From positions 186,001 through 250,000 of the forward strand of contig NZ_JAGPXE010000004.1 in assembly GCF_018070075.1 (NCBI RefSeq): 64,000 nt of DNA, written 5' to 3'. The translations under genes and the position numbers were made by a program. The notes beneath the pieces are model-generated. The model saw only the letters and a program-made list of their open reading frames with translations, had not been told where the DNA came from and searched no databases. Source of the DNA: Saccharopolyspora endophytica. GTDB taxonomy: Bacteria; Actinomycetota; Actinomycetes; Mycobacteriales; Pseudonocardiaceae. How positions within the stretch are numbered: the stretch's first letter is position 1; each line of letters begins with the position of its first letter. Positions 42,620-57,687 of the stretch are shown here, one piece after another.

Positions 42620-42667
42620 GAGAGCTCACCTCCACAAAGGACATTGATCGGAAAGGGGTGTGCAGCG

Positions 42668-43456
42668 TCAGCCCTGCTGGTAGAGGGGGTGGCAGTACGG
42701 GCACAGCCACCGCCGCGCGTCGATCTGCCGCCACTCATCGGCGGTCGCCATCTCCTCCAGCACGGCTCGGTCGGCGAGCCGGACCGGGCCGATGGGATCG
42801 TCGTAGGCCAGGACCTCCGGGCATGCGGGGTGAGCACAGATCAGTTCCCACTCGCTGTCCGCGCCGCGCTCGACGGTGACCTCGACGACCACACCCCGGG
42901 GTTGCGACGGGTCGTGCAGGCCGTGTGCCATGCCCAGCTCGACCGCGACGTCCTCGGCCTCGGCGTAGGTGAGATCGGTGTAGACCTCGACCTCGTCGCC
43001 GTGGATGTCACGCAGGACGACCTGCCATGCCGGTTTGCAGCATCGCCAGCTGCTCTCCTTCGGGCACAGCGGCCGGCCTTCGTGGACCGCCATGGCCAGC
43101 TCAGTAGCCACAGCCCGAACGGTTTCCCAAAAGCCGTACTGGTCGCAGAGCTCAGCGGTCGGCAGCGTCCAGTCGATGCCGTACTTACCGAGGAACACCG
43201 CGGCATCGCGGACGTGCCCCGGAGCGCCGCCGGTGGGGCCGCTGAAGACCTCGCATCCGGACGCGACGTGGAACAGCCCCCACTGGCCGGTGAACCGCCA
43301 CTGCCCGGTCACGATGTCGCGGCCCACGCGCGGCGCGACCACCAGGCCAGGAACCGGGGTCGGCTCCACGATCCCGACGATCTGGTTCTTGCCCAGCTGC
43401 AGCGGAATCCGGTCCGGAACCTCGGGACAGGTGCAGGGTTCGGTGTAGGTGTGCAT
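42668..43456 (-). CDS. AICE protein of unknown function with Cys motifs
   Basis: 262 residues from ATG 43456 (GGGAG eight bases upstream). A C-terminal zinc-ribbon candidate is formed by CAHPACPE and RWLCPYCHPLY. N-terminal CTCPEVPDR adds two more Cys. No enzyme motif recognised. It is 48 bp upstream of prim-pol in the same operon and may serve replication or transfer. Confidence 0.65.
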   Translation of the reverse strand: MHTYTEPCTCPEVPDRIPLQLGKNQIVGIVEPTPVPGLVVAPRVGRDIVTGQWRFTGQWGLFHVASGCEVFSGPTGGAPGHVRDAAVFLGKYGIDWTLPTAELCDQYGFWETVRAVATELAMAVHEGRPLCPKESSWRCCKPAWQVVLRDIHGDEVEVYTDLTYAEAEDVAVELGMAHGLHDPSQPRGVVVEVTVERGADSEWELICAHPACPEVLAYDDPIGPVRLADRAVLEEMATADEWRQIDARRWLCPYCHPLYQQG

Positions 43457-43526
43457 CGTGGGTACTCCCTTCAACATGGCCGATGGCCTCATGCGGCGGT
43501 CTTTTCGGTGCTGGTGTCGGTGGGTT

Positions 43527-43688
43527 TCAGTCGCGCTCGTCGATGGGTGTGACCATCGGCAGCGCCTCGGTGACGATCTGGGTCGCGGTCCAGCGGTCGT
43601 GCTGGTCGTGGAGCTCGTTCACGAGGTCCTCGACCTGGGTGGGGGTGGTGGTCTGGTTCATCCGGCGGGCGAACTCGGCGGCGTCCAC
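43527..43688 (-). CDS. Small AICE protein, 53 residues
   Basis: Starts at GTG 43688 with GGAG five bases upstream; sequence begins VDAAEFARRMNQTTTPTQ and ends VTPIDERD. Acidic, helical, no known domain. Coding supported by ribosome site and position in the operon. Confidence 0.55.
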   Translation of the reverse strand: MDAAEFARRMNQTTTPTQVEDLVNELHDQHDRWTATQIVTEALPMVTPIDERD

Positions 43689-43906
43689 AACGTCTCCATT
43701 CGTGACAGTGCGTAGCTGTTTTGGGGCGTGTTGGGGGAAGGGAACGGCGAGGGAGGCGGGAGGGAATTCGGGTGGAGCAAGGGAGAATTCCCTGCGGCGT
43801 TCTCTTGGGCCGTTCCCTGGGGTTGAGCTGGCGGTTTGAGCTGGAAGGGAGTCAGTGAGTCCGGTCTTGCCGACTGGCTGGCGCCGCCTGTGGGGAGGTG
43901 TTTCGG

Positions 43907-46162
43907 CTAGCTGGGCTCGTTCTCTCCCTCGCGGGCGGCGAGGGCGGCGTGAACACGGTGCGTGGTCACGGTGGGGATGCCGTCGATCTTCTTGACGTCG
44001 ACGCCGAGCGCGGCGAGCTGGGCCTTGAGCTTGCCGCCGTCGAGGGCCTGGTAGGCCCGGTGGTTGGGGGCGAGCTTGCGCAGGCGGGCGACGACGTCGG
44101 TGGCCTTGACCTTGTCGGCGTCCTCTAGCACGGACGCGACGTCCTCGAGCAGGTCGCGCTGCTCGGGGGCCTGTTCGGTGCGGCGGAAGCGGGTGCCGGC
44201 GCGCAGGATGCGGGCGCGTTCGGCGATCTGCTCGGCGCTGCTGCCGTCGATGAAGTTGGTGCGGACGGTTTCGATGGTGTTGTCGGCGTCCTTGACCACC
44301 AGCACGCCCTTGTCCTTGCCCTGTCGCAGCTCGTGCGGGGCGGCCCCACCTGCGTCAACGGCGGCGTCGCCGAGGGCCATGCGGGACTGGGACTCGGTGG
44401 CCACGACCAGCGAAGCGCGGATGTGGGCACCGTTGCGGGCGCGGATGGGGAGGTTTTCGTTGGTGGGGTCCTGGGTGCCCTGCCAGAACGTCACGTTCAC
44501 TGCCCGGCCCTGGTTCTGGATCTTGCGCACGGCATTGAAGAACCGGCTGTTGGCCTTCGACCCGCCGTAGGGGATGCCGTCCTCGTCCCGGGCGGGGCAC
44601 TCGTAGGCCACCTGGGCCTCATCGACGACCAGGACGATCGGGGGGAAACCGCTGGTCACGTCGCGCGAGAGCGCCGCGGTGATGCCGTTGGGGTAGGCAT
44701 CGGCGTTGGCCTCGATCTCGGTGATGCGGCGGTTCATCTCGTAGACGGCCCACTCCAGCATCTCGGTGGCCTCGGCGACGTGTTCGTCGGTGGGTCCGGC
44801 GATGTAGGTGCTGACCAGGGGCTTGAGCATGTTGTAGTCGCCGACGCCCTTGAGGTCGGCCAGGTGCACCTCGACCGAGGCATCCAGCAGTAGCCACAGC
44901 AGCAGCGACCGCAGGGAGGCGGTCTTGCCCTGGTTGGACAGGCCGGTGATCAGCAGGTGGCACTGCCAGAGCTTGAGCAGGAACGCGTCCCCGCGCAGGG
45001 TCACACCCCACGGGGCCTTGCCCGAGAAGATGTCGGCCTTGTCGAAACCGTCGTTGACCAGCGGAGATTCACCGATCGGCTCGTCGAGGGCGCCGGAGTC
45101 GGCGATCCAGAACCGCACCGTGCGGGCGGCTTCGGCCTTGGTGATGAACACCTCGTGCTCGTGACGCCCGAGGCCTTCGGCCAGCGCGCGGCGCTTGGCG
45201 CGGATCTGCTCGGTGGTCACCGTGGTGTCCCCGCTGGAAGGCAGGGTCACGTCGACCTCGACACCGCACCCCGCGAGCCGGATCGGGGAGAGCATTGCGG
45301 CACGCTGGTGCTCGTCCATGTGCTCGATCGCCCGCCGCAGCGCCGGAATCCCCGCCCTGCGCAGCGCCGACACCACGACGCTCGGGGTGACCTCGACCTC
45401 GCCGACGCCGCTGCCCGGGGCGGCCAGGAACGCCGGCACGGCCTGGCGGTGGCGGCGCTTGTTGTAACCCGAGCCCAGCACCCCGAGCAGCACGGCGAGT
45501 CCGGCCCACGGCGACCACTCCGCAGCCCAGGCAACGAACTCGAAACCGCTGTTCAGAGCCGAGAAGAACCCCGACCAGACGTCGGTGAAGCCCATCCCGC
45601 CCGGTGAGCAGGCGGCGATCAGGGAGGCCACCAGCACGATCCCGAACACCGCGCCCACGAGCCCGGCCAGGCCGATGGGCAGGTGCTTGAGGAACTGGCC
45701 CCAGACCTTCAGGCGCTCCAGGAACAGCTTCTTGCTGTCAGCGCGCTGACGCAGCAGGTCAGCGGCCACAGCGTGTTCACCAGCGGCCTGCGCCGCGGCG
45801 ATCTGGGCGTCGATGTCGCGACCGGTCCAGCGCCCGTAGGTGGTCGAGAAGGTGTCCCACGCCCCGGCCACCAGGAAGTACGAGTGGCGAAGGGCGGTCA
45901 GGCCAGCGGTTTTCACCACCGGAGCCGCCTCGCGAGCCTTACCGGCCAGGGCCGGGGGCACCACGGGCTTGCGCGGGACAACCTCGGTCGACGGAGCGAC
46001 AACCTCGGCGTCCACGACCTCATCGGCGCTGTTCACGTCGTCGGCGAGGCGTTCGGCGGTGGCGTGCACCGTGGCCGGTTCGGTGTCGGCCTGGTGGCGG
46101 TGCGGGAAGTTCAGGACCTCGCCCATGGGGGTCTCGATCTCCTCATGTGGTTGCATCGTCAA
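43907..46162 (-). CDS. FtsK/SpoIIIE-type conjugative DNA translocase (TraSA/TraB-like)
   Basis: A 751-residue protein. Two membrane helices (about 165-190 and 220-240) precede the motor: Walker A TGLSNQGKTAS, Walker B PIVLVVDEAQV, then VTFWQGTQDPTNENLP. The C-terminal ~80 residues form a winged-helix-like domain (LGVDVKKIDGIPTVTTHRVH) suited to recognising transfer-site repeats. Such proteins move double-stranded DNA between mycelia alone. ATG 46156 is an alternative start. Confidence 0.92.
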   Translation of the reverse strand: MTMQPHEEIETPMGEVLNFPHRHQADTEPATVHATAERLADDVNSADEVVDAEVVAPSTEVVPRKPVVPPALAGKAREAAPVVKTAGLTALRHSYFLVAGAWDTFSTTYGRWTGRDIDAQIAAAQAAGEHAVAADLLRQRADSKKLFLERLKVWGQFLKHLPIGLAGLVGAVFGIVLVASLIAACSPGGMGFTDVWSGFFSALNSGFEFVAWAAEWSPWAGLAVLLGVLGSGYNKRRHRQAVPAFLAAPGSGVGEVEVTPSVVVSALRRAGIPALRRAIEHMDEHQRAAMLSPIRLAGCGVEVDVTLPSSGDTTVTTEQIRAKRRALAEGLGRHEHEVFITKAEAARTVRFWIADSGALDEPIGESPLVNDGFDKADIFSGKAPWGVTLRGDAFLLKLWQCHLLITGLSNQGKTASLRSLLLWLLLDASVEVHLADLKGVGDYNMLKPLVSTYIAGPTDEHVAEATEMLEWAVYEMNRRITEIEANADAYPNGITAALSRDVTSGFPPIVLVVDEAQVAYECPARDEDGIPYGGSKANSRFFNAVRKIQNQGRAVNVTFWQGTQDPTNENLPIRARNGAHIRASLVVATESQSRMALGDAAVDAGGAAPHELRQGKDKGVLVVKDADNTIETVRTNFIDGSSAEQIAERARILRAGTRFRRTEQAPEQRDLLEDVASVLEDADKVKATDVVARLRKLAPNHRAYQALDGGKLKAQLAALGVDVKKIDGIPTVTTHRVHAALAAREGENEPS

Positions 46163-46217
46163 TCACCTTTCGGCCGTAGCCGGGTCAGGAAGGAAGCTCT
46201 GGGGTGTGTGCAGGGGG

Positions 46218-47519
46218 TCAGGCGGTGGTGTGCTTGCGCCAGTCGTCGACGAACTCGCGGGCGTTCTCCCAGCGGGTGTTCAGGCGCTTGGCGATCGCGT
46301 TGACCTTCTCGGTGGCGGGGTCCAGTGCGCCGGTGTTGACCATCTGCCAGAACTGCTCCCGTGCCCGGGTCTTGGAGCCGTAGCGGGAAGGGTTCTCCGG
46401 CTTCACCGGAGAGGTCTCGCCGTCCTTCTCCCGATGCAGCTCAGGCACGGTGGAGAACCCGGTTTCCCCGGGTGTCTCGTCCCGGGTGGTGAGGCGGTTC
46501 TCGGCGGCGGCGACCTCTCCGGCGAACGCTGCCGTGAGGCGAGTGGAGACCGCCGGAACCAGGGCCATGGAGATCAGCAGCCCAAGCGGGACGAACAGCC
46601 ACACCAGCGGGCCGATGTCGCCGGCCGGGTCGGGGCCGATGTAGTGGATGCCGATCTGGAGCACGAGGGTGGCCACGAACAGCAGCAGCTCCATCAGGAA
46701 GAACCCGTTGCCCGCGGCGGCCCGAAGTTTCGCGCCGAGGCCGTGGACCTGGCCGGCCTGCTTGAGCGAGTGCAGCGCGGAGGGCACCGCGCCGAACCAC
46801 TGGGCCATCAGGATCACCAGCACGCCGACGCTGAACATCGGCTCGATCAGCCAGTTCACCAACCGGGTGTCCGGCGAGATCACGTTCAGGCGGCTGCCGG
46901 CGTTGACCGTGCCCAGCACGACCGAGGCCAGGCCGGGCAGCAGCGCGGCCAGCGGCAGCCAGGTCCGCAGCCGGTTGAGCAGCACCAGCCGGTAGGACGG
47001 GTCGGTCGCGCGGTGCTGGCGCTCCCGCGCTTCGGCGATGCGTTCCTGGGCCTGGCGGTGGCGCTGGCGCATGGCCTGTTCGTGCTTTGCAGCTTCCTGC
47101 TCTTCGGCGAGGTCGGCAGTGAGCATGTCGTGCTCGTGGCCGCGGCGGGCTTCCCGCCGCCGGCGGCCCAGGGCGCGGGCTTCGGCGAGCTCGTCCTCGG
47201 TCATGGCCTCGATGAGCACGTCGTCGTCCTGCATCGACACCACCCGGTCGGCCACCCGCCGGATCGCCGCCAGGCGGTCGGGGTCCGGGATCGCCGACCG
47301 CGTGCCGCGCCGGCCGGTGCCGGTGGCCCAGATGTCGCTGTCGGCGGCGGTGTCGTAGTCACCGGGGCTGACCTCGGCCACCGGGTCGATGCCGGCCGGG
47401 TCGGTCTCCAGCTGGTTCTCGGTGGTCCAGTGATACCCCTGCATTCCGCTGCCCTCGCTCGTGTCGTTGCTGGTCAGGTAGGCGTCGATCACGTCGCCGC
47501 CGCTGGGTCGCGTGCTCAT
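46218..47519 (-). CDS. SpdB-like spread membrane protein
   Basis: A 433-residue protein. A charged coiled-coil (about 120-175, EEQEAAKHEQAMRQRHRQAQ) precedes four hydrophobic helices (LPLAALLPGLASVVLG, MFSVGVLVILMAQWFG, FLMELLLFVATLVLQIG, LVWLFVPLGLLISMALV), then a basic C-terminal DNA-binding-like tail (RARHQFW-style REQFWQM, WENAREFVDDWRKH). Spd proteins spread the element within recipient mycelium. It overlaps the next upstream gene by 4 bp. Confidence 0.75.
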   Translation of the reverse strand: MSTRPSGGDVIDAYLTSNDTSEGSGMQGYHWTTENQLETDPAGIDPVAEVSPGDYDTAADSDIWATGTGRRGTRSAIPDPDRLAAIRRVADRVVSMQDDDVLIEAMTEDELAEARALGRRRREARRGHEHDMLTADLAEEQEAAKHEQAMRQRHRQAQERIAEARERQHRATDPSYRLVLLNRLRTWLPLAALLPGLASVVLGTVNAGSRLNVISPDTRLVNWLIEPMFSVGVLVILMAQWFGAVPSALHSLKQAGQVHGLGAKLRAAAGNGFFLMELLLFVATLVLQIGIHYIGPDPAGDIGPLVWLFVPLGLLISMALVPAVSTRLTAAFAGEVAAAENRLTTRDETPGETGFSTVPELHREKDGETSPVKPENPSRYGSKTRAREQFWQMVNTGALDPATEKVNAIAKRLNTRWENAREFVDDWRKHTTA

Positions 47520-47785
47520 GCCGCCACCGCCTTTCGCGCACGTCGTGCCGCCACGTCACGCAGGTGCTGCAGGACGTGGATCAGCAGGTACAGGCCGGAG
47601 ATCAGCCGGGGCTCGGCCGCCGCGAGCACGCGAAGGAGTGCGCGGCCCAGGGTTTGCAGGCTGAACAGCACGGCAGGCAGAACGGCCCGCCTGGTCACCA
47701 TCACGGACGCGAGCAGCAGCAGACCGGCCAGACCGACCAGCATCAGGACGCCGCGCGCACCGTGGTTGAGGAAGCTCTCTAGCAT
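47516..47785 (-). CDS. Small Spd-like membrane protein
   Basis: 89 residues with one or two hydrophobic helices (GVLMLVGLAGLLLLASVMV; LISGLYLLIHVLQHL) and a basic tail. It overlaps the SpdB-like gene by 4 bp. Probably a transfer/spread component. Confidence 0.7.
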   Translation of the reverse strand: MLESFLNHGARGVLMLVGLAGLLLLASVMVTRRAVLPAVLFSLQTLGRALLRVLAAAEPRLISGLYLLIHVLQHLRDVAARRARKAVAA

Positions 47786-47873
47786 CGGAGTTCTCCATCC
47801 GGTTCTCGGATCGGTTCGGGAGACCCGGCCCAGCAGGTGTTCTTGGCGGAGTGACTGCTGGGCCGGGGCGGAG

Positions 47874-48050
47874 CTACTTGCCCTGCTTCTTCAGTGCCTC
47901 GCAGGCGTCGCAGTTTGGGCCGGTGCGGGGCAGGTACCAGGTGTCGGTCTCGCCGCGCCCGCTCGGGATCTTCTGCCCGCAGAGGGTGATCATCGAGCCG
48001 TCCCACCAGGACTTCTTGACGATCGTGTGCCAGGGGTTGCTCTTGCTCAT
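47874..48050 (-). CDS. Small Cys-motif protein, 58 residues
   Basis: Begins MSKSNPWHTIVKKSWWDGSM. Zinc-ribbon candidate: ITLCGQKIPSG with CDACEALKKQGK (one Cys plus CxxC and a His). GAAGGAG lies eight bases before ATG 48050. Common type of accessory gene in actinomycete plasmids. Confidence 0.65.
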   Translation of the reverse strand: MSKSNPWHTIVKKSWWDGSMITLCGQKIPSGRGETDTWYLPRTGPNCDACEALKKQGK

Positions 48051-48063
48051 CGCTGCTTCTCCT

Positions 48064-48195
48064 TCAGTCCTGGCCCAGCAGGCCGCAGGTGGTGCAGCCG
48101 CAGCACGCGCAGCCGCCCTGGTCGTCGCACTCCGGGCACGGGTCCTCGTCGATGACTTCGCCTTCGATGACCGGGCCCACCAACTCGCTGCTCAT
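48064..48195 (-). CDS. Small Cys-rich protein, 43 residues
   Basis: Acidic N-terminus (MSSELVGPVIEGEVIDEDP) then eight Cys in PCPECDDQGGCACCGCTTC within 20 residues. The CxxC repeats imply zinc or iron-sulfur binding. Its ATG overlaps the upstream small gene by 4 bp. Confidence 0.6.
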   Translation of the reverse strand: MSSELVGPVIEGEVIDEDPCPECDDQGGCACCGCTTCGLLGQD

Positions 48196-48353
48196 CGGCG
48201 CAACCAGGAGACGTTCTTGGCGGCCTCGGCCACGGCGTCGTTGGCGGCGAGGTAGTCGTCGGTCTCGGTGCGGTCCCGGCGGGAGACTCGCTCCAGCTCG
48301 GCCTTGGCTTTGTTGTAGGTGTCGTTGGCCTGCTGCCGGTCTCGCTTGCTCAT
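48192..48353 (-). CDS. Small charged helical protein, 53 residues
   Basis: MSKRDRQQANDTYNKAKAEL then a heptad-like helix ending VSWLRR. Start overlaps the upstream stop (ATGA) and its own stop overlaps the downstream start (ATGA), so it is part of a coupled chain. Confidence 0.6.
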   Translation of the reverse strand: MSKRDRQQANDTYNKAKAELERVSRRDRTETDDYLAANDAVAEAAKNVSWLRR

Positions 48354-48508
48354 CGCTGACCTCCGTTGTTCTCGTCGGTGACGTCGTCGGATCCGATCTC
48401 GACGGGGGTGTTCTCGGGCAGGACGGTGCGGGTCACGACCTGGCCCTTGTCGTTGACGTTCTCGATGACGAGGTGGCCGTTGCCGTCGTTGTAAGTGCGC
48501 GTCTGCAT
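48350..48508 (-). CDS. Small AICE protein, 52 residues
   Basis: MQTRTYNDGNGHLVIENVND, then beta-strand-rich sequence ending DDVTDENNGGQR. No known domain. First of four ultra-short genes with 4-bp overlaps or short gaps (48508 to 47874). Confidence 0.55.
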   Translation of the reverse strand: MQTRTYNDGNGHLVIENVNDKGQVVTRTVLPENTPVEIGSDDVTDENNGGQR

Positions 48509-48525
48509 CGCGGTCGTCTCCCGGT

Positions 48526-48786
48526 TCAGCTGTGCAGCGAGGCCGCGTAGCCCTCGGTCAGGTCGGTGGCGTGCTGCACCATCTGCAGGGCCTGCTGCAC
48601 CTGCTCGACGACCTGCTGGTAGGTGTTGGCGATCTCGGTTGCCGTCTGCGACTCCTGCGAGACCTGGCTCAGCAGAACGACGTTGGCTTCCGCGTCCAGC
48701 ACCGCCTGGGCCAGCGCGCCCCGGATGTGGGTGGCCTTCTCGTCGGCCTGGCCCAAGCTCTCGCGCGCCTGGTCGATCAGCGACAT
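48526..48786 (-). CDS. Possible separate 86-residue product from an internal start in paralogue 1
   Basis: In-frame ATG 48786 is preceded by AGGAGG (48794-48799) with ideal 7-base spacing. The predicted product begins MSLIDQARESLGQADEKATH and ends TEGYAASLHS, a helical bundle of about WXG100 size but without a WXG motif. The same arrangement is found at 50339. Confidence 0.5.
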   Translation of the reverse strand: MSLIDQARESLGQADEKATHIRGALAQAVLDAEANVVLLSQVSQESQTATEIANTYQQVVEQVQQALQMVQHATDLTEGYAASLHS

Positions 48787-49593
48787 TCCTGTTCCTCCTG
48801 TGTTCGGTGTGGTGGACGTGCCCGCCCCGGCCAGTGCCGGAGCTGCCTGTGGCGTGCCGGTGGTGGTGTCGTCACTGGTCTGGGGTTTGTTCGTGTTGCT
48901 GGGTGCCGGCGGGGTGCGTCGGTGTGCCAGATCCATTGCCGCGGTGATGGCCTCGGCACCGAGGTGCTGGTGGCGGATCAGCTCGTCTTGCACGGCGCTG
49001 ATTTCCCGCTCGTGCTCCCGAACCAGCTCGTCGGCCTCCCGCTTCGCATCGAGGTAGACGTCCATGGGCGCGTTCTGCCCGAACAGCAAGTCCATGTCGA
49101 TGCCGGAACTGGCGGCGGCAGCGAGCTCGGCGGCCCGATTGCCCTGAAGACCCTGGGCTTTCAACCACACGCGGTCAGCGGCCCAACCTGCGAAGGCCAT
49201 CGCAGCGACGTCCGCCAACAGGTGCCCGGCGAACGGTTCGAAATCAACCCCGCCGCCTCGGGCCATTGACCTCCCGCCGAAGATCTCGACTACGTCGTCA
49301 CCGACCCACGCCGAGTTGACAACGAGGCCTCGGTGCTTGCCGACGACCGCGTGCGCGGCCTCATGCCCTGCCTTCTGCTCAACCCCCAGCGCCTGCGGCA
49401 CACCAACCCAGGGGAGGACCTTGATGTGACCGTCCGGGGAAGGGATGCGCCTCACCTTGGCGAGGCAGTCCTCGCAGTCCGGCTTGCTGTGAATCCACCG
49501 CTCATACAGCGGGGCCCAGCCCAGTTCCAGCACGTCGTCGCCGTGCCGCTGGCAGAGGATTTGATCCAGGTTGGCTACCGGACTGGCTTCCAT
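48526..49593 (-). CDS. HEAAH metallopeptidase-like AICE protein, paralogue 1
   Basis: 355 residues from ATG 49593. Order: CxxC (CEDCLAKVRR) near residue 40; zincin motif GHEAAHAVVGKH (about 77-88); helical FtsH-M41-like core with AFAGWAADRVW and an acidic candidate third ligand in SSGIDMDLL; helix with REHEREISAVQDELIRH; a Thr/Pro/Gly linker; and a C-terminal 86-residue helical module. The paralogue at 50079 has the same plan. The role may be processing of a transfer or host protein (inference). An internal start is annotated separately. Confidence 0.65.
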   Translation of the reverse strand: MEASPVANLDQILCQRHGDDVLELGWAPLYERWIHSKPDCEDCLAKVRRIPSPDGHIKVLPWVGVPQALGVEQKAGHEAAHAVVGKHRGLVVNSAWVGDDVVEIFGGRSMARGGGVDFEPFAGHLLADVAAMAFAGWAADRVWLKAQGLQGNRAAELAAAASSGIDMDLLFGQNAPMDVYLDAKREADELVREHEREISAVQDELIRHQHLGAEAITAAMDLAHRRTPPAPSNTNKPQTSDDTTTGTPQAAPALAGAGTSTTPNTGGTGMSLIDQARESLGQADEKATHIRGALAQAVLDAEANVVLLSQVSQESQTATEIANTYQQVVEQVQQALQMVQHATDLTEGYAASLHS

Positions 49594-50066
49594 CACGCAC
49601 CCCCGACCACAGCCGTCAGCAGGGCCGCGACGAACAGCCACGCCCAGTGCCAGGACTGATCGAGCACGTAGGCCCCGGTGCCCAGGGAGGGGTTGTCGTC
49701 GTGGCCGGTGCGGGGTGCGCCGAGGCGGTAGAAGCCACCGTTACCGGTGATCTCGGCGAGTCGAGCGAGGGTGTGGCGACGGTCGGCCCAGTAGTGCGTG
49801 ACCGCGCTGACCACTTGGCCGGCGGTGAACGCGGCGGGGTGGATGGGCAGGTCGAGCACGGCCCACACCAGGCCGACCGCGATGGCTGTGGTGGCGGTGT
49901 AGGTGGCCACGTGCTTGACGCACGCCCAACGCCCGGACCAGTCCGGCAGGCCCTTGGTGGCCGCCTGGTGGGAGGTCTGCACCCAGTGGTCGGCCACGTG
50001 GTGGGCCACCAGCAGCGTCGGGAGCACGACCGCGAACACCAGCGCGGCAACGAGAGTCGAAGGCAT
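49593..50066 (-). CDS. DUF3307-like membrane protein
   Basis: 157 residues with four hydrophobic segments. LLVAHHVADHWVQTSHQA and CVKHVATYTATTAIAVG supply His in or near the membrane, as in DUF3307; later VVSAVTHYWADRRH. Stop overlaps the start of the HEAAH gene (TGATG). Frequently found in AICE and plasmid transfer regions. Confidence 0.65.
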   Translation of the reverse strand: MPSTLVAALVFAVVLPTLLVAHHVADHWVQTSHQAATKGLPDWSGRWACVKHVATYTATTAIAVGLVWAVLDLPIHPAAFTAGQVVSAVTHYWADRRHTLARLAEITGNGGFYRLGAPRTGHDDNPSLGTGAYVLDQSWHWAWLFVAALLTAVVGGA

Positions 50067-50078
50067 GTCCCCTCCTGT

Positions 50079-50339
50079 TCAGCTGTGCAGCGAGGCCGCG
50101 TAGGCCTCGGTGGACTCGGTGGCCTGCGAGACCAGACCCATGACCTGCTCGATCTGCTCCATCGCCTGCCGGTAGACCGCCCCGATCTCGAGTGGCGTCA
50201 TCGCGTCGGCGCTGACCCCGGAGACCTCCGTCGCGTTGGCCTCGAGGTCGAGCTGGGCCTGGCGCAGCGCGCCCAAGATGTAGTTGGCTCGCTCGTTGGT
50301 GCCGGCCAGCGTGGTTCGCGCCTGATCGATCAGCGACAT
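50079..50339 (-). CDS. Possible separate 86-residue product from an internal start in paralogue 2
   Basis: In-frame ATG 50339 follows AGGAGG (50347-50352) at 7 bases. The product begins MSLIDQARTTLAGTNERANY and ends TEAYAASLHS, exactly as long as its counterpart at 48786. Confidence 0.5.
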   Translation of the reverse strand: MSLIDQARTTLAGTNERANYILGALRQAQLDLEANATEVSGVSADAMTPLEIGAVYRQAMEQIEQVMGLVSQATESTEAYAASLHS

Positions 50340-51161
50340 TCCTGTTCCTCCTGTGCTCGGTGTGCTGGTTGCACCCGCCGCGGCGGCGGGCATGTTCGTG
50401 GTGGTGCCGGCGCCCCCGGTGGGCGGCTCGGCGTCAGGGCGGGACTGCTGGGTCCGGCGTGGACGGTGAGCGAGGTCCATCGCGGCGTGGATCGCCTCGG
50501 GCCCGAGGTGGCGGTGGCGGAGCAATTCCTCGTGGACCGCACGAATCTCTGCCTCGTGCTCACCCACAAGCTCGTCGGTCGCGGCGATGGCCTGGGTGTG
50601 CAGTTGCGGGACGTCCCAGCCGTGCGGGGCTGCCATGTCGGTCAAGCCCTTCATGTCGCCGGCCGAGGCGCAGGCCGCATCGATCTGCAACGCGGGGTCC
50701 TCCGCGCGGCCGATCGCCCGCAGCCACATGCGGTCGGCGGCCCATCCGGCGTGGGACATGTTGGCCACCGCCTCCAGCGACGCGCTGTCGACGTGGAAAT
50801 TGACCCGACCACCGCTAATGCCTTCGGACACGCCATAGGACAGCGATTCCGTGCCGATGTAGGCCTCGGTGACCCGAATCCCCTCGGCTCGAACCGCCGC
50901 CACCGCGTGCGCGGCCTCGTGCATCGCGATATCGGCGTCGGTGCGTTCCACCGGGCTGTAGTGCCATCCGCGGAGCTCCAGGCCCCCGGTCTCGCTCACC
51001 TGCCGGTTGATCAGTTCCGCGCAGTCCCAGCAGTCGATCTCGCTGCCGTTCTCGTCGCTCCCGCGAAACCGCACGTTGTACCGCGGGTGCCACCCATGCG
51101 CGATCACATCCCGAGCACAGGACTCGCAGAACACATCAACCCAGCCCCGCACCGCACTCAT
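50079..51161 (-). CDS. HEAAH metallopeptidase-like AICE protein, paralogue 2
   Basis: 360 residues. N-terminal zinc ribbon (FCESCARD with IDCWDCAEL), zincin motif AMHEAAHAVAAV (about 79-90), core with HAGWAADRMW and SAGDMKGLTD (candidate third ligand Asp), REHEAEIRAVHEELLRH-like helix (GEHEAEIRAVHEELLRHR), Pro/Thr linker and the 86-residue C-terminal helical module. It overlaps the WhiB-like gene by 4 bp. Paralogue of 48526-49593; about one third identity by eye, higher at the C-terminus. Confidence 0.65.
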   Translation of the reverse strand: MSAVRGWVDVFCESCARDVIAHGWHPRYNVRFRGSDENGSEIDCWDCAELINRQVSETGGLELRGWHYSPVERTDADIAMHEAAHAVAAVRAEGIRVTEAYIGTESLSYGVSEGISGGRVNFHVDSASLEAVANMSHAGWAADRMWLRAIGRAEDPALQIDAACASAGDMKGLTDMAAPHGWDVPQLHTQAIAATDELVGEHEAEIRAVHEELLRHRHLGPEAIHAAMDLAHRPRRTQQSRPDAEPPTGGAGTTTNMPAAAAGATSTPSTGGTGMSLIDQARTTLAGTNERANYILGALRQAQLDLEANATEVSGVSADAMTPLEIGAVYRQAMEQIEQVMGLVSQATESTEAYAASLHS

Positions 51162-51718
51162 GCCGCGATCTCTCCAGGAACGTCCTGCGTGTTCAGCCAG
51201 TCGATCTCGGGCTGCACCAGGCGCATCACGGCGGCGGCCTGCTGGTCGGCTCCGTCGCCCCGCTGACGTGCCTGGTACAGCGCCTGCCTGACCTGCTTGC
51301 GCAGCAGCGGCAGCCGCTCGCCCCGCACCTGCTCCAGGTCGTCGAGCACCCGGCCAGCGCCGGCGGAAACCTCGCGGGCCGTCAGCGGCTCGACCTGTCG
51401 GCGACGCTTGCCGGACAGGCCACGCTCGCGGCGGATCTCGGCTCGCTCGGCGGTCGTGGTTGCGCCCCAGATGCCCTCGCTGCCGCGGTTGATCGCGTTC
51501 TCCCGGCAGGTCGCCATCAGCGGGCACTGCTCGCAGATCGCCTTCGCCCGCTCGACCTGCTCGCGGATCAGCGGCACGGACACGTCTTCCGAGACCGGGA
51601 AGTGCAGGTCCGGGTCCTCGTCCGCGCACAGCGGGTGCGCCCCGAAGTCCTCCCCCGGCACGTGCGTCATCAGCGTGTACAAGTCATCGCCCCGCGCGAT
51701 GCGCTCCTGCGTGGTCAT
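51158..51718 (-). CDS. WhiB-like iron-sulfur transcription factor
   Basis: 186 residues. Four Cys: one in HPLCADEDPD, two in AICEQCPLMATC (CxxC plus third), matching the WhiB C-xn-C-xx-C-xxxxx-C pattern; then GIWGATTTAERAEIRR, the Wbl G[VI]W turn and basic segment. A ~75-residue C-terminal helical extension is unusual. Coupled by 4-bp overlaps to both neighbours. Confidence 0.85.
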   Translation of the reverse strand: MTTQERIARGDDLYTLMTHVPGEDFGAHPLCADEDPDLHFPVSEDVSVPLIREQVERAKAICEQCPLMATCRENAINRGSEGIWGATTTAERAEIRRERGLSGKRRRQVEPLTAREVSAGAGRVLDDLEQVRGERLPLLRKQVRQALYQARQRGDGADQQAAAVMRLVQPEIDWLNTQDVPGEIAA

Positions 51719-51933
51719 GCGATCGCCTCCTCGCTCGGAATCTGGGTGTTCAGCAGCCGGTTAGCGTCGGCGCGTCGAGCCCGCCGCGCTGCGCGCTTCA
51801 GCTGAACCTCGTCCAGGCCGGGACCGCCCAACACGCCGTTGGCGTGCGCATCCATCGCTTCCTGAAGCGCCTGGGCCAGCAGCTGCTTGTTCGACAGCTC
51901 GGACTCGTTGACCTGCTCCGACGTGGTTCGCAT
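51715..51933 (-). CDS. Small AICE protein, first gene of the transfer operon
   Basis: 72 residues, charged and helical (LSNKQLLAQALQEAMDAH, LKRAARRARRADANRLLN). No known domain. Its start lies 49 bp from the -10 candidate of the operator-controlled promoter. Confidence 0.65.
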   Translation of the reverse strand: MRTTSEQVNESELSNKQLLAQALQEAMDAHANGVLGGPGLDEVQLKRAARRARRADANRLLNTQIPSEEAIA

Positions 51934-51949
51934 CGTTCAAAGTTCCCTT

Positions 51950-52028
51950 CTGAGTTACGTCAGTTCGTTCTGACTTAAGTCAGATTAAGGACACGTGTTC
52001 CCTCATGTCAAGCACTGGCTTAAGTCAG
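51950..52028. promoter_or_regulatory. Three palindromic operators of the GntR (KorSA-like) repressor
   Basis: CTGAGTTACGTCAG (51950-51963), CTGACTTAAGTCAG (51970-51983, perfect) and CTGGCTTAAGTCAG (52015-52028). They lie in the divergent promoter between the transfer operon and the GntR gene. Centre spacings are 20 and 45 bp. Confidence 0.8.
51982..52011 (-). promoter_or_regulatory. Promoter of the transfer/replication operon
   Basis: On the minus strand: TTGACA (52011-52006), 18-bp spacer, TAATCT (51987-51982). The -10 overlaps the perfect operator, so repressor binding would block transcription. Confidence 0.7.
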
Positions 52029-52061
52029 ATGTAGGCTTGCTATACGACCGAAAGGGGTTTC

Positions 52062-52418
52062 ATGGCTCTGGACCGGACCGAAATCGCAGATCAGCTACGG
52101 GAAGCCATCACGTCTGGCGACTACTCCCCCGGCGACAAACTCCGCCCACAACGGGAACTCGCCAAGCAACTGGGAGCCGCGCCGAACACCGTCGGAGCGG
52201 CGCTCAAGATCCTGGCCGGCGAAGGGCTCGTCACGTTGCGGGAAAAGGCTGCCGCCGTCGTGAGAGATCCAGCAGAGGCATCGGCGGCAGCCCCCATCGA
52301 AGCGGAGCTGGCCGAAGTCCGTACCGAGTTGCAGGATCTCCGAGGGCGACTTTCCGAGGTAGACCAGCGCGTCGCCGACCTCATCAACCGCGTCGCCACT
52401 GATCAGCCTCCGACCTGA
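52062..52418 (+). CDS. GntR-family repressor, KorSA-like
   Basis: 118 residues: winged HTH (about 1-70; IADQLREAITSGDYSPGDKL, ELAKQLGAAPNTVGAAL) and a short coiled coil (AELAEVRTELQDLRGRLSEV) instead of a ligand domain. KorSA of pSAM2 represses transfer and activator genes; the same role is likely given the three operators just upstream. AAAGGGG is the ribosome site. 3' end overlaps the next convergent gene by 16 bp. Confidence 0.85.
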   Translation: MALDRTEIADQLREAITSGDYSPGDKLRPQRELAKQLGAAPNTVGAALKILAGEGLVTLREKAAAVVRDPAEASAAAPIEAELAEVRTELQDLRGRLSEVDQRVADLINRVATDQPPT

Positions 52419-52606
52419 TTCGCGAAGGTCGTCAAGCTCTCCGCGCCCCCGCTGAACGCGGCCCCGACCACCTTCACCAGTTGGGCCGCCTCGGCGGGGG
52501 CCTTGAGGACCAGCGCCACGAACCCCACCAGGAGCAGTAACCCAACGAACTTCGCCGGGCCGCCCCCGGATTTCGGCAGAACCGGAAGTGACTGCTTCTT
52601 CGCCAT
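52403..52606 (-). CDS. Small single-span membrane protein
   Basis: 67 residues: basic MAKKQSLPVLPKSGGG then helix FVGLLLLVGFVALVLKAP and an Ala/Gly-rich tail. Similar tiny proteins occur in AICEs. Lies convergent to the GntR gene. Confidence 0.6.
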   Translation of the reverse strand: MAKKQSLPVLPKSGGGPAKFVGLLLLVGFVALVLKAPAEAAQLVKVVGAAFSGGAESLTTFANQVGG

Positions 52607-52752
52607 CGCTTTCTCCCTCGCTCGCTGTCGTTTTCTGCGATGGCACTAGTTCACCTCCGCACCCCCCGGGGAGCGGCAGTGAGCGAAGGGGGAGCGCAAA
52701 GGCGTGCGGGGGGAGCGCGCGGAATGCGAAGATGCGCTCAGGAGGAGATCAC

Positions 52753-54159
52753 GTGGACGAGTCGCACAAGAACCCGCAGCTCAAGGCCGTTATGGACGCG
52801 GCCAACATGAGCAGCAAGGGGCTCGCTTCACGGATCAAGGCACTCAGCGAACAACGTGGTGACGACCCTCCTGCACGCCCGGACCACAACCGAGTCCGTC
52901 GCTGGTTTCGCGACGGTGAGGTCCCCAAGCTCCAGACCCAGCGGTACATCGCAGAGGCTTTGCGTTCGAAGCTGGGCCGCGCGGTCACGCTGGCCGAGAT
53001 CGGTTTCCCGTCGGACCCCACCGACGCCGAGGGCGAGGCCGTCGACATCGCCGAAGACGGGGCTCGCTACCCCGAAAGCACCGAAACCTCAATCCAGATT
53101 CTCACCAGGCTTGTCGAGGCCGATCAGCAGAACTCGCAGATCGGCCCCGATTGGAACTCCGACACGACGGCGACGACGATCACCGGCTACCTGTTCGCGC
53201 AGCCTCTGGTGGTCGCAGAACCCCTGGACAGCTACGGGAATGGCATCGCTGCGCCGATCCGCGCGACGACCGCCAGCTTCATGCAGCTCGACTTCCAGTA
53301 CGGCGGCGGACATCTCCGGGACATGCTGCTCGCGTTCTTCCAGAGCAACGTGCTGCCGACGCTCAAGCAGTCACACCCGGACGCAACGAGAAAGGAGCTG
53401 TTCTCCGCTGCAGCGGAGGTGGCGCAGCTCCTCGGGTGGACCTCGTACGACGTCGGCAGGCACGCTGCAGCCAGCAGGTACTTCAAGCAAGGTCTGCGAC
53501 TCGCTCGGGAAGCCGGCGACCACATGCTCGGCGGACGCCTCTTCGCGAACCTGAGCCACCAGGCGAACTACCTCGGGAAGTTCAAGGAAGCGACGGAGTA
53601 CGCCCGGGCAGCGCAGCATGCCACGCGAGGCATCGCGACGCCCACCGTCGAAACGCTCTATCTCGCACACGAAGCCCGCGCTCTGGCGAGCGTCGGAGAG
53701 AGCTCCCTGTGCGCTTCAGTTATGGGCCGCGCCGAGAGCTTGCTCGACAAGGGCAATCCCGGTGCTGAACCCGCATGGGCTTCGTACGTCGATGCACCGG
53801 AAATCGCAGGTGAATGGGCACATGTCTTCCGTGACCTCGGGCAGCCCGATCGAGCCCTGTCATTCGTCGAGACTGCGGTGCAGGCAACCCCGACCCGTAC
53901 GCAGGCCTTCTTGCGGATGGTCAGCGCCGCCTCGACGCTTCAGGCTGGCGACTCCGATGCGGCTGTGTCGATCGCGCACCAAGCGGTTGACCTCGCGGGA
54001 CCCCTCAACTCAGCCCGATATCACCGCTACCTGACGGACTTCCGGGCCGATCTTGTGGAACGCCACGGGGAGGGGGACGCCCGCGTCAGGTCGTTCACCA
54101 CGACCCTTCGCGAGCGTTACCCCCAGTTCGATGTGCCGAATCCACGCTCAGCGCGGTGA
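52753..54159 (+). CDS. HTH/TPR-type transcriptional regulator
   Basis: 468 residues from GTG 52753 (GGAGGAG nine bases upstream). N-terminal helix-turn-helix-like region (about 1-75; MSSKGLASRIKAL, HNRVRRWFRDGEVPK) and a long C-terminal TPR-type array (AAEVAQLLGWTSYDVGRHAA, ARYFKQGL-like SRYFKQGLRLAREAGD, HEARALASVGE). This is the common actinobacterial regulator resembling signal-peptide-sensing RRNPP proteins. It may control transfer or cargo. Confidence 0.8.
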   Translation: MDESHKNPQLKAVMDAANMSSKGLASRIKALSEQRGDDPPARPDHNRVRRWFRDGEVPKLQTQRYIAEALRSKLGRAVTLAEIGFPSDPTDAEGEAVDIAEDGARYPESTETSIQILTRLVEADQQNSQIGPDWNSDTTATTITGYLFAQPLVVAEPLDSYGNGIAAPIRATTASFMQLDFQYGGGHLRDMLLAFFQSNVLPTLKQSHPDATRKELFSAAAEVAQLLGWTSYDVGRHAAASRYFKQGLRLAREAGDHMLGGRLFANLSHQANYLGKFKEATEYARAAQHATRGIATPTVETLYLAHEARALASVGESSLCASVMGRAESLLDKGNPGAEPAWASYVDAPEIAGEWAHVFRDLGQPDRALSFVETAVQATPTRTQAFLRMVSAASTLQAGDSDAAVSIAHQAVDLAGPLNSARYHRYLTDFRADLVERHGEGDARVRSFTTTLRERYPQFDVPNPRSAR

Positions 54160-55044
54160 CCAGGTCGAGGAGAGACCATCACGGATCGTCCGCATTCGGG
54201 CGTCGTACTCGTCCGCGATGTCCTGGCTTTCTTGCACGTTCTGCATGATCCAGGTGGTCATCTTGAGCTGATGGACGGCTTGAACGGTCTGGAACCCAGA
54301 CCACTGGGTGACGTCGAACCCGTACGCATCAACGAACGTCTGGTACTGAGCGTCTGACCACCAGCCCGCGGTCCTGGTCTCGGTGGCGGTCATGCCGAGA
54401 TCCCACTCCGGCTGCCCATACGCGAACCGTTCGAAGTCGATGAGCACCGGCGCACCGTCGTCCGCAATCATGACGTTCCCGATGTGAGCATCCCCGTGCA
54501 CCGCACAAGCAGGCAAAACGTACTCAAGGGCCGCCACCTCATCGGACAGCTCATCAAGTCGACGAAGCAGGAACCGACGGTCAGACTCCGCAATCGGAGC
54601 CTTCTCGATCCGCGGCTGGACACGGTCGAGGATGTCTTCGTTGGGCAGCTGCAGCGCCGCTGGCGGCTCAAGGGCATGCAGCCGGCGAAGCAGGGACCCG
54701 AGGTCGCCGATGCGGGAGTACGGGGCGGGGTCGCCCGAGATGAAGTGCCAGAAGGTCACCGGGTGTCCATCGACTGCAAGCGGCTGCCGAACGGAATCTA
54801 CTACTTGAGCTGCAGAAATACCGGCTTGGTGCAGCCACTTCGACACGGCGACTTCGCGAACGACATCGGCCCAGTAGTCCATCGTGCGGGCGATTCGCAC
54901 AACGACGCTGCAAGACGGGATGTGAAAGAGGGCGTTCTCTCCAAGCCTCATCAGGCGCGCGTCGTCGGATGGAATCCCGGCTTCGGCGCACGCCGCCTCG
55001 GTGACGGCGCGCGTCGTATCGGCACTGAACGAAGCAGTCGTCAT
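54148..55044 (-). CDS. Aminoglycoside-phosphotransferase-like kinase (APH/CHK fold)
   Basis: 298 residues. Brenner-type catalytic loop AVHGDAHIGNVMI and metal-binding DFERFAYGQPEWDLG; the nucleotide loop is RLGENALFHIP with VVVRIAR as Lys/Arg substitute. Members next to AICE regulators are widespread; substrate may be a small metabolite rather than an antibiotic. Its 3' end overlaps the HTH/TPR gene by 12 bp. Confidence 0.85.
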   Translation of the reverse strand: MTTASFSADTTRAVTEAACAEAGIPSDDARLMRLGENALFHIPSCSVVVRIARTMDYWADVVREVAVSKWLHQAGISAAQVVDSVRQPLAVDGHPVTFWHFISGDPAPYSRIGDLGSLLRRLHALEPPAALQLPNEDILDRVQPRIEKAPIAESDRRFLLRRLDELSDEVAALEYVLPACAVHGDAHIGNVMIADDGAPVLIDFERFAYGQPEWDLGMTATETRTAGWWSDAQYQTFVDAYGFDVTQWSGFQTVQAVHQLKMTTWIMQNVQESQDIADEYDARMRTIRDGLSSTWSPR

Positions 55045-55217
55045 CAACAACCCTTCCGACGGAGTCGACTCCACAGGCTACGGGGTTGTGCATCGAAGAC
55101 CAGCGGCTTTGAGATGCCGCGCGGCCTCGCGTGACCAGTCGGCCACCTGATGTTCAGCCACCCTCGCCGCTGGCCGCTAAGACCGTTTCATAGCGCCCTG
55201 ACGTCGCCATACAGGGG

Positions 55218-55430
55218 CTAATGCTCTGACCTTGGGGCGCCGGACCCAGCCGATCCTTCTTCGCTCTGCAAGGTGAGCGCCTCCAGCGCGTACGCGAGCT
55301 CCCGCAAGCTGCAAACGAGCTGAGTTCGCTCTTCTTCGGTGATCTCACCACGAGGAAGCCCGAACGCGACGTGGTCCAGTTCCCACTGCGTCTGACGAAG
55401 CACGACGGCCAACCCAACCCGTCCCGTCAT
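55218..55430 (-). CDS. Small protein, 70 residues, divergent from GntR gene
   Basis: MTGRVGLAVVLRQTQWELDH, then LVCSLRELAYALEALTLQ; helical and acidic. ATG 55430. Shares a promoter region carrying 10-bp tandem repeats with the GntR gene. No known domain. Confidence 0.55.
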   Translation of the reverse strand: MTGRVGLAVVLRQTQWELDHVAFGLPRGEITEEERTQLVCSLRELAYALEALTLQSEEGSAGSGAPRSEH

Positions 55431-55464
55431 CGCACGCCCCTCTCGATAGACATGCAGGTCAGCA

Positions 55465-55504
55465 TAGGACGCGGTAGGACGCGGTGGACAGCGGTAGGGC
55501 GCGC
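55465..55504. repeat. Four tandem 10-bp repeats in a divergent promoter
   Basis: TAGGACGCGG, TAGGACGCGG, TGGACAGCGG, TAGGGCGCGC (55465-55504). One repeat per helical turn on one DNA face, which suits cooperative regulator binding. Confidence 0.7.
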
Positions 55505-55547
55505 TCTCATCCGGCAGGGTGCGCCCGGCCGCTCTAGCGTCCGCTTC

Positions 55548-55799
55548 ATGAGCGAGGGCTTCACACCCGACCCGGCCTCCGGCTACATCTACATGCAGCT
55601 GGCCGACTACCTCGAAGGTCAGGTCAAGAACGGCGCGCTCGAACCGGGAACGCGACTCCCCGCCGAGCGCGACCTCGCCGCGGAGTACGGCGTGTCGCTG
55701 GGCACGGCCCGACGGGCGACCGAAGTGCTGCGCGAACGTGGCATCGTCGTCACCTTCGCCAGCACAGGCACGTTTATCGCGCGCGAGCAAAAGAAGTAA
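55548..55799 (+). CDS. Short GntR-family regulator
   Basis: 83 residues, only the winged-helix domain: YIYMQLADYLEGQVKNGALE, LPAERDLAAEYGVSLGTARR, LRERGIVVTFASTGTFI. No effector domain. ATG 55548. Probably autoregulated through the upstream 10-bp repeats. Confidence 0.85.
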   Translation: MSEGFTPDPASGYIYMQLADYLEGQVKNGALEPGTRLPAERDLAAEYGVSLGTARRATEVLRERGIVVTFASTGTFIAREQKK

Positions 55800-55861
55800 G
55801 CGGGCCGCAGCGATAGCCTGCAGCGCCTAGAAGCCCCCAGAACGAAAGGCGTGGTCGCAGC

Positions 55862-56092
55862 TTGTCCATCCACGAGATCCACATCGGGATCCCCAGCCTT
55901 GACGACGTGAAGTACGAACCACCGGAACGCGTCGTCAACGTCGCAATCGCGGGGGAATACGCGTTCCTACAGGTTCAGCCCTGCGACGAAAAGGGCAGCC
56001 TCGGCGAGATCGAATCCGAGATCCGCGTTCCCGCCAAGTCGCTCGTACGCGCTCTCCAGACCCTCATCGAGGACCAAGAGGCCGAGGGCTGA
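55862..56092 (+). CDS. Small acidic protein of unknown function
   Basis: 76 residues: IHIGIPSLDDVKYEPPERVV, then YAFLQVQPCDEKGS and a C-terminal acidic helix (LVRALQTLIEDQEAEG). It would start at TTG 55862. Lies 62 bp downstream of the GntR gene, possibly in its operon. Confidence 0.5.
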   Translation: MSIHEIHIGIPSLDDVKYEPPERVVNVAIAGEYAFLQVQPCDEKGSLGEIESEIRVPAKSLVRALQTLIEDQEAEG

Positions 56093-56125
56093 CAGCCCCA
56101 AGCTGCACGAGGGGCCGTCGGCACT

Positions 56126-56497
56126 CTATTCACCACCGGATGGCTCGGAGCGAGATTTCTGGGTCACAGCGTGCGCCGGCACCCACCACACATGCCTCAT
56201 CCCTCCCGCACCTGGGTTAGCACCACGGTGCACGCGGAGGCGGACCTCACCCCACCAGCGACCAGCAGTGTCCCGCCGCCAAGCGAGCAATTCAGCGTCG
56301 GTGGTGGCAGTCATGTCCCACCCATCGGGGAGCTCCACACGCGGCGACGTCGGCTGGACCGCGAACACGGCGGAGAGGTCCACGCGCACCGGAACAGCCG
56401 GGCGCCGCTCCCGGTCGTCACCCGGCTGTGCAGGCGGATGCGCTTGAACGTTATCGAACACGTGGTCTAGTATTGCTGATGCGTGCCTCGACAGCAC
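56126..56497 (-). CDS. Hypothetical protein, 123 residues
   Basis: Contains DGWDMTATTDAELLAWRRDT and RWWGEVRLRVH, giving a small beta-rich domain of unknown type, then HVWWVPAHAV. No strong ribosome site. Coding bias is consistent. Confidence 0.5.
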   Translation of the reverse strand: MLSRHASAILDHVFDNVQAHPPAQPGDDRERRPAVPVRVDLSAVFAVQPTSPRVELPDGWDMTATTDAELLAWRRDTAGRWWGEVRLRVHRGANPGAGGMRHVWWVPAHAVTQKSRSEPSGGE

Positions 56498-56606
56498 GCC
56501 CGTTCACCGAGGTAGGGGAAGTGCCGACGGTGGACACGACAGCGCCCCGCGCCGCCTGAGCAAGGCGGTGCGGGGCGCTTCGTCGTCCGAATCGACCATG
56601 CTGCTG

Positions 56607-57407
56607 TCATCCGGTTCCACGTTGCCCAGCGGTGCGAGCCTGGCGGGCTTGGTCGAGGCTGACTCGCAGCGCCTCTTCGAGGTCCGCGGTCTCCTGGGTG
56701 CGGGGCTCCGGAACGGCGATCTGGCGGTGGGTGAGCTTGGCATCGATCAGCGCCTGCAGGGCCTCGCGTGAGTGGTCGCGGTAGCCGGTGGGGTCGAAGG
56801 TCGTGCTCGACAGCGACAGCACCAGCTGTTCGGCCATCCGCTGTTCCTGCTCGCGGGGCTGCGGGGCCTGGTCGGTGAGCCATCCGAAGTCCGGTTCCCG
56901 CACCTCATCCGGCCACAACAGCGTGACCAGGCTGATCCCCGGCCCATAGGGCCGTAGCAACGCCAATCTCTCCCGGGTCCGGATCGCCACCCGCCCCAGC
57001 CCGACGCGGCCGGTGTCGGTCATGGCGTCGCGCAGCAGGCTGTAGGCACCAAGTGCGACCTGGTGCGGCTGCAGGAAGTACGAGCGGTCGAACAGGATCG
57101 GATCCACCGCGCCGGCCGGGACGAACTCGGCCACCTCGATGCTGTGCGCACTGGGCAGCGGCAACTCCGCCAACTCGTCCTCGGTCATCACGACCATCCG
57201 GCCGTCGGGCAGCTCGTAGCCCTTGACGATCTCCTCCCACGGCACCCGGCGGTCCTCTGCGGTGCAGACCCGCTCGTGCCGGACCCGGGCCCCATCAGAC
57301 CGGTGAACCTGCCGAAAGCTGATCGACCTCGACTCCGTTGCCGCCACCAACCCGACCGGGATCGCCACCAGCCCGAAACTGATCACACCGTTCCACAGCG
57401 TCCTCAC
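56607..57407 (-). CDS. ku: Ku protein (bacterial NHEJ)
   Basis: 266 residues, the normal size for bacterial Ku. Signature start RTLWNGVISFGLVAIPVGL, then VHRSDGARVRHERVC, EIVKGYELPDGRMVVMTEDE, IEVAEFVPAGAVDPILFDRSYFL (in parts), GLGRVAIRTRERLALLRP. It binds DNA ends and recruits LigD. No ligD is within the element, so it would use host LigD or protect the element's ends. Start GTG 57407. It is cargo in the AICE. Confidence 0.92.
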   Translation of the reverse strand: MRTLWNGVISFGLVAIPVGLVAATESRSISFRQVHRSDGARVRHERVCTAEDRRVPWEEIVKGYELPDGRMVVMTEDELAELPLPSAHSIEVAEFVPAGAVDPILFDRSYFLQPHQVALGAYSLLRDAMTDTGRVGLGRVAIRTRERLALLRPYGPGISLVTLLWPDEVREPDFGWLTDQAPQPREQEQRMAEQLVLSLSSTTFDPTGYRDHSREALQALIDAKLTHRQIAVPEPRTQETADLEEALRVSLDQARQARTAGQRGTG

Positions 57408-57579
57408 AGCGCCAGCCTGCGCCCAGCTGGCAGGCCCACCCAAGGCCCTTCGACCCTTCACCCCCGACGACATCCGCCGACCCTGGATCCCACCTGCCTG
57501 GGCGGGCGGAAGGACGACCAGGCCGCTGGCCGCCCGCCAGTCCACTGACATCGACGATGACCCGCCCCAGGCAGGCCCA
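57397..57579. repeat. Ku upstream region, copy A of a duplicated block
   Basis: Includes the Ku start codon region and 5' flank. Shares an exact 35-bp stretch (57538-57572, starting CAGTCCACTGACATCGACGA) and a longer imperfect match with 58472-58589. Copy A has about 60 bp extra in the middle. Confidence 0.75.
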
Positions 57580-57687
57580 CAATGCGTCGGGCATCCGTTA
57601 GGAAGACACACGTGACGACCAGCGGAAACTCCACGCGCTGGCGACTTGTGGACCCAATTAATTGGCTTCATCGCGAACACAAGAAGA

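Follow-up and report, generated by a model that had tools for sequence, protein, structure and literature searches.

Two paralogous genes in a 64,000-nucleotide stretch of the Saccharopolyspora endophytica genome (the window, meaning that whole stretch; RefSeq assembly GCF_018070075.1, contig NZ_JAGPXE010000004.1, positions 186,001 to 250,000) very probably each yield two proteins from a single reading frame: a long fusion of a peptidase-like front domain with a C-terminal helical module and, by internal initiation, the 86-residue module alone. The first-pass annotation had proposed such a pair of products, and the conserved Shine-Dalgarno (SD) site, codon choice and low mRNA structure described below lend support to it. 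The best explanation of the arrangement as a whole, and one we consider probable, is a two-product gene whose hairpin-like module serves in docking or trafficking. The genes are carried by an actinomycete integrative and conjugative element (AICE), a kind of mobile element found in soil actinobacteria, and are laid out as follows.

48526..49593, minus strand: fusion gene 1, 355 amino acids (aa), with Cys-rich knuckle, probable M41-like zincin (HEAAH 77-81, Asp 166), Thr/Pro/Gly linker and helical module
48526..48786, minus strand: predicted internal in-frame gene of fusion gene 1, ATG at 48786, free 86-aa helical module
48787..48801, minus strand: putative internal ribosome site before ATG 48786, ACAGGAGGAACAGGA, SD duplex -10.3 kcal/mol
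50079..51161, minus strand: fusion gene 2, 360 aa, with Cys-rich knuckle, probable M41-like zincin (HEAAH 81-85, Asp 169), linker and module
50079..50339, minus strand: predicted internal in-frame gene of fusion gene 2, ATG at 50339, free 86-aa helical module
50340..50354, minus strand: putative internal ribosome site before ATG 50339, ACAGGAGGAACAGGA, SD duplex -10.3 kcal/mol

The spacing first reported for the two paralogues, AGGAGG at 7 bases from an in-frame ATG, is exact: ACAGGAGGAACAGGA, that is AGGAGG and then 7 nt, stands directly before both ATG codons (48786 and 50339). Both internal products are 86 residues long, start with MSLIDQAR, end with AASLHS and have the Thr/Pro/Gly linker immediately on their N-terminal side, as originally described. 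The two fusion proteins are 45% identical and their genes 59% identical in DNA, and the longest exact run in the alignment of the genes, 30 nt, spans positions -16 to +13 relative to the internal ATG. A separate comparison of the paralogues gave two long DNA repeats, one at the internal start (48764-48831 and 50317-50384, 88%) and one at the gene 3' end (48521-48622 and 50074-50175, 76%); the latter could derive from sequence around the start of the following gene.

Twenty-one fused copies were collected, and all except L155, whose 16 kb hold no further element gene, share their locus with other element genes (translocase, SpdB-like, WhiB, DUF3307 or PrimPol). The set includes L013 despite an in-frame TAG in its front domain. 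Left out were L150 (a near-identical second copy of L062:7654), L016 (pCM32, the same as L011 there), L052 (which covers the L049 region again), two modules that stand alone (L014:10156 and L049:9520), and L202, L203 and L205, which have other C-terminal modules and were tested separately. The front domain is the zincin in 12 copies, a Cys-His-Asp domain in six, DUF4097 in one and a small Cys-rich domain, recognised by eye, in two. As at least three other front domains occur besides the zincin, the conserved unit, as far as these sequences indicate, is the linker, internal start and module together. The three fusions tested separately join Cys-His-Asp domains to other modules, alike in L202 and L205 and different in L203 (helical by eye); L203 retains ACAGGAGGAACACCC-ATG.

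Within the same genes, an SD duplex of -9 kcal/mol or stronger precedes 17 of the 21 internal starts and 15 of 281 other in-frame ATG/GTG codons. The internal start codon is ATG in 20 copies and GTG in one, and in alignments it coincides with the probable initiator of module homologues that stand alone. Codon choice follows the same pattern: the first Gly of Gly-Gly linkers is GGA in 17/17 cases, compared with 46 of the 546 other Gly codons in these genes (8.4%). When the linker was randomly recoded with synonymous codons, the observed SD pairing was significant at p<0.05 in 14/21 copies, among them the window copy at 48786 (p 0.0315) and L062:7654, which has an SD of -8.6 kcal/mol and p 0.0045 though its linker reads GR instead of GG. 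Relatedness of the copies inflates the recoding, SD and structure statistics, and clustering was therefore used; taking the worst recoding p of 16 clusters (13 at 60% module identity plus the three other-module copies), Fisher's p was 5.8e-8. Predicted mRNA folding between -30 and +20 had a median of -8.1 kcal/mol at the internal starts and -16.0 kcal/mol at 5,491 codons elsewhere in these genes. The Thr-rich linker may itself contribute to low folding, so each start was set against recoded versions that encode an unchanged protein: folding was weaker than the mean of the synonymous recodings in 20/21 copies (Wilcoxon 2.4e-6), with individual p<0.05 in 11/21. A chance SD is excluded by the 17/21 against 15/281 contrast, the linker recoding, the GGA bias and the mRNA structure.

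Several results count against internal initiation. SD pairing is weaker than -9 kcal/mol in 4/21 copies (L048:9047, -4.0; L062:6239, -5.9; L065, -6.5; L062:7654, -8.6) and in two of the three other-module fusions (L202, -7.0; L205, -5.9), and L048:9047, with the weakest SD, is also the sole copy without reduced mRNA structure. The recoding p for the window copy at 50339 was 0.057, and pairwise synonymous-codon identity was not significantly higher in the linker than in the rest of the gene in any of 11 related pairs.

The AlphaFold2 model of the module, built from 7 input sequences (predicted local distance difference test score 85.8, predicted template modelling score 0.64), has two helices, 3-42 and 48-85, and depicts a helical hairpin. 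In this it resembles WXG100/ESX proteins and the LXG targeting factors Lap1/Lap2 (PMC9600955), which share with it a helical hairpin of ~86-100 aa, a nearby chromosomal FtsK/EccC-type ATPase gene and an association with polymorphic toxins. It differs from WXG100/ESX proteins in being C-terminal on AICE fusions, in having no decisive profile or fold match and in lacking both of their motifs. W-x-G is absent from the module loop in alignments read by eye. YxxxD/E, an export signal described in PMC3935865, is absent from the C-terminus, where L or F occupies the fourth position after the invariant Tyr (Y80) in 14/14 sequences. The module is therefore not classed as WXG100. Besides these absences, other search results speak against a docking or trafficking hairpin: Foldseek of the model against the PDB gave no match at E<=0.001 and placed CFP10-ESAT6 (3fav_C) at rank 37 (TM 0.76, E 0.65) amid many helical hairpins, the module profile ranked designed helical bundles (E 6e-6) above ESAT-6-like 12fa (E 0.0032), and the element translocase resembles the EccC-like ATPase described below only through a weak match at the P-loop (E 0.041). 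Pfam returned no match above cut-off for the modules.

Stand-alone homologues of the 86-residue module, which had been named as a check on the first-pass annotation, do exist. A module profile found matches in 333 of 390 genomes of the family (E<=0.001), and another profile found them in seven of 296 class-wide genomes (E<=1e-5), two of these from the family and five marginal; as far as these genomes go, the module appears to be restricted almost wholly to Pseudonocardiaceae. Of 23 chromosomal loci that were read (the top matches, L019-L042, 24 in number, minus one element copy; several are near-identical), 22 have a stand-alone module followed by an EccC-like FtsK ATPase gene, and in 13 of the 23 a second small open reading frame (ORF) between the two was matched by BLAST. 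The best NCBIfam match of the ATPase was EccCa (E 4e-25, below cut-off), with FtsK_SpoIIIE at E 7e-22, and in PADLOC it matched FtsK/HerA-type models (SspH, E 3e-17). The genome that hosts the window has this ATPase behind a module at L162, as well as two EccB and two EccC genes above curated cut-offs.

The module is also associated with deaminase toxins. On contig C2 of the host, L043:5036-6813 comprises an ORF of 88 aa, a module gene directly before the gene of a DddA-like deaminase with a module-like N-terminus, and Imm1; the profile that matched this N-terminus had been trained with that same toxin. A search with AICE modules only matched the N-termini of other deaminase ORFs (E 5.4e-9 and 1.1e-8), both with PF14428, and of the four deaminase ORFs with a module-type N-terminus that were scanned, three have this domain. 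Because stand-alone members lie upstream of the EccC-like ATPase and a version of the module heads DddA-like toxins, the hairpin is most likely a docking or trafficking domain; the two associations support that role, short of proof.

A mechanism may be sketched on this basis. Ribosomes entering at the upstream start would make the front domain, flexible linker and 86-aa hairpin, and those entering at the conserved in-frame SD/ATG at the linker end would make the hairpin alone. The free hairpin would associate with its fused counterpart in the manner of WXG100 pairs, and the two would carry whichever front domain is present to a motor of the FtsK family, which could be the EccC-like ATPase of the host or the translocase encoded by the element. 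We put forward only tentatively, as somewhat under an even chance, that hairpins pair with one another and anchor the front domain to such an ATPase; that the front domain is exported is more doubtful still. The peptidase-like part might then act at or across the mating contact. More broadly, AICEs of Pseudonocardiaceae might carry an effector-like cassette, in which exchangeable fronts ride on a divergent ESX-like hairpin signal, recognised by an FtsK-family motor, with a free partner supplied by internal initiation; the conjugative element would deliver or position peptidases in mating, using an address tag common to the DddA-like toxins of the host. We regard this extension as speculative and rather unlikely.

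The internal start might instead give a free hairpin that has a self-association and regulatory role, with the short product competing with or capping the fused protein, so controlling the peptidase by dosage or inhibition, and neither export nor docking on a motor taking place. Plasmid in-frame short products such as pIGRK RepR' and R6K pi30.5 do modulate the long ones (PMC6854812), and a hairpin is well shaped for homotypic pairing. However, stand-alone homologues found with an EccC-like ATPase, and DddA-like toxin N-termini, need no peptidase inhibitor, and the module is retained with four unrelated front domains, making this alternative unlikely in our view. We think it quite improbable that the ribosome site is an unused relic of a stand-alone hairpin gene that was fused behind the fronts by stop loss. 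Stand-alone modules with their own start do occur even within elements (L014:10156 and L049:9520), the degraded SD and unreduced mRNA structure of L048:9047 are what such a history could leave, and the non-significant linker codon comparison would agree with it. A disused site would nevertheless lose the SD pairing, GGA codons and low structure that are still seen across divergent copies (13 clusters when grouped at 60% identity), and L062:7654 keeps its SD in spite of the altered linker. That AGGAGG is a translation-pausing element letting the front domain fold before the hairpin, with the ATG incidental, is very improbable: the motif does sit exactly at the domain boundary, but pausing explains neither the start codon found there in all 21 copies, nor its alignment with the stand-alone initiator, nor the low mRNA structure.

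A two-product gene with a docking or trafficking hairpin, the explanation we favour, has parallels on plasmids. RSF1010 produces RepB' as a separate protein. Genes that give a long and an N-terminally truncated protein from one frame include RK2 trfA, R6K pir, RSF1010 repB/mobA and pIGRK repR (PMC6854812), and the likeness lies in a single frame on a mobile element yielding two proteins. Those are single replication or transfer genes, whereas in the present family a unit of linker, start and hairpin stands behind at least four unrelated fronts. CRISPR type I Cas11 is similar in arrangement: this small subunit is translated from a start that lies inside a larger gene (PMC11899642). FtsK-dependent ESX export of polymorphic toxins is treated in PMC3482391, the available part of which does not describe the hairpin family, and the accessible portion of a paper on AICEs (PMC3218068) makes no mention of it. 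Literature searches over titles and abstract openings, with subscription papers mostly beyond reach, returned no description of the arrangement. In the gene table of pCM32, which may be incomplete, the long ORF alone is listed; such short proteins are therefore easily missed. If the two-product reading is true, the arrangement would be a compact way to supply a partner subunit, with a targeting domain and its free copy coming from one frame for any cargo. It also ties AICEs to a widespread EccC-like operon on the chromosomes of one actinobacterial family and to DddA-like toxins in its genus.

The front domain of the window proteins is likely an M41-like zincin, an assignment that follows from weak profile matches together with invariant residues. 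Its profile matched FtsH chains best in the PDB (whole-chain E 0.0015-0.003), with HExxH and the C-terminal helices in order; no single segment was significant alone, and of three FtsH chains displayed, the Asp segment aligned in one, where it scored negatively. H81, E82, H85, D169 and three knuckle Cys are invariant in 7/7 aligned front domains, and D169 would be a zinc ligand; L065, outside that alignment, has Glu at the Asp place by eye. As in the M41 peptidase of the FtsH family, HExxH, an invariant Asp 88-89 residues past the first His, and C-terminal helices occur in the same order, but the present front domain has no AAA ATPase part, bears an N-terminal Cys-rich knuckle and is below the Pfam cut-off or unmatched. 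Two relatives had M41 matches, with E 0.066 (13.5 bits) and E 0.084 (13.2 bits) where the cut-off is 29.9 bits, and one of them also had M50B at E 0.028; in the window proteins Pfam found no M41 match, and P0002 had M50 at E 0.42. The resemblance of the HEAAH core to M41 noted in the first-pass annotation is supported by the FtsH profile matches and invariant residues.

The Cys-His-Asp domain has the motif CHWLAGAI...HTAV..P.G..LDI, and its invariant Cys and His and mostly conserved Asp could be read as those of a peptidase; a PDB search with the domain found nothing. In L013/L198 this domain has one in-frame TAG, with module and ribosome site intact. It is also embedded in open frames reported as 13,359, 22,621, 26,230 and 4,483 aa long (L204, L206, L207 and L214; G533, G111 and G360) with other sequence around it. 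The small Cys-rich domain takes the place of the zincin at the front of L046:9136 and L152, where the internal start is kept.

That the internal site belongs to the zincin was considered and rejected: a wider family search listed 12 strong hits for the zincin plus knuckle, and every one was a fused copy known from the other loci read. Among weaker zincin relatives (20 loci scripted) an HExxH frame was present in 18, and an SD of -8 kcal/mol or stronger preceded a later ATG/GTG in two of these. The module profile run over 24 weaker-zincin loci matched only L194, which adjoins the stand-alone module of the L049 element. With DUF3307 as bait, 71 loci (58 + 13) contained module genes in L062, L065 and L052, the last repeating L049; L052 was left out of the scan that gave the other two, its module genes coming from a separate reading. 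The module therefore belongs to a subset of DUF3307 elements. Among the viral contigs scanned, neither fusion protein nor the Cys-His-Asp alignment had any relatives, and fusion protein 2 matched no phage records and, among plasmid records, pCM32 only. For the fusion proteins and modules, PHROGs gave nothing better than E 0.024 and PADLOC nothing at E<=0.01.

The remaining features of the element in the window are as follows.

49593..50066, minus strand: DUF3307 membrane protein gene between the two fusion genes (PF11750 E 2.3e-6, phrog_2470 E 3.4e-15)
51158..51718, minus strand: WhiB-family gene overlapping the start of fusion gene 2 (PF02467 E 2.6e-15)
43907..46162, minus strand: FtsK/SpoIIIE-type DNA translocase of the element (PF01580 E 3.6e-6)
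37681..61516, no strand assigned: AICE context, with tRNA, integrase-like gene and att-like repeats
37681-37753: tRNA-Val(cac)
37853-39340: integrase-like gene, identified by eye on its translation and location
37709-37754, 59550-59595 and 61471-61516: 46-nt att-like repeat

The fusion genes lie in an AICE, which combines integration at a tRNA, a tyrosine integrase (by eye), PrimPol and Rep, and an FtsK-type Tra protein. The translocase, which we take to be TraB, matched an FtsK/HerA-type model in PADLOC (E 7e-5), and another window gene, judged from its translation, is presumably SpdB; the SpdB-like protein had no Pfam match. PrimPol and Rep of the element are homologous to genes of pCM32. 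A second element in the same genome, on contig C22, has Cys-His-Asp and DUF4097 genes that agree at 98-100% with plasmid pCM32 from S. endophytica. The third att-like copy lies inside a 106-nt exact repeat (59549-59654 and 61470-61575), which suggests a 1.9-kb tandem accretion or remnant adjoining the AICE.

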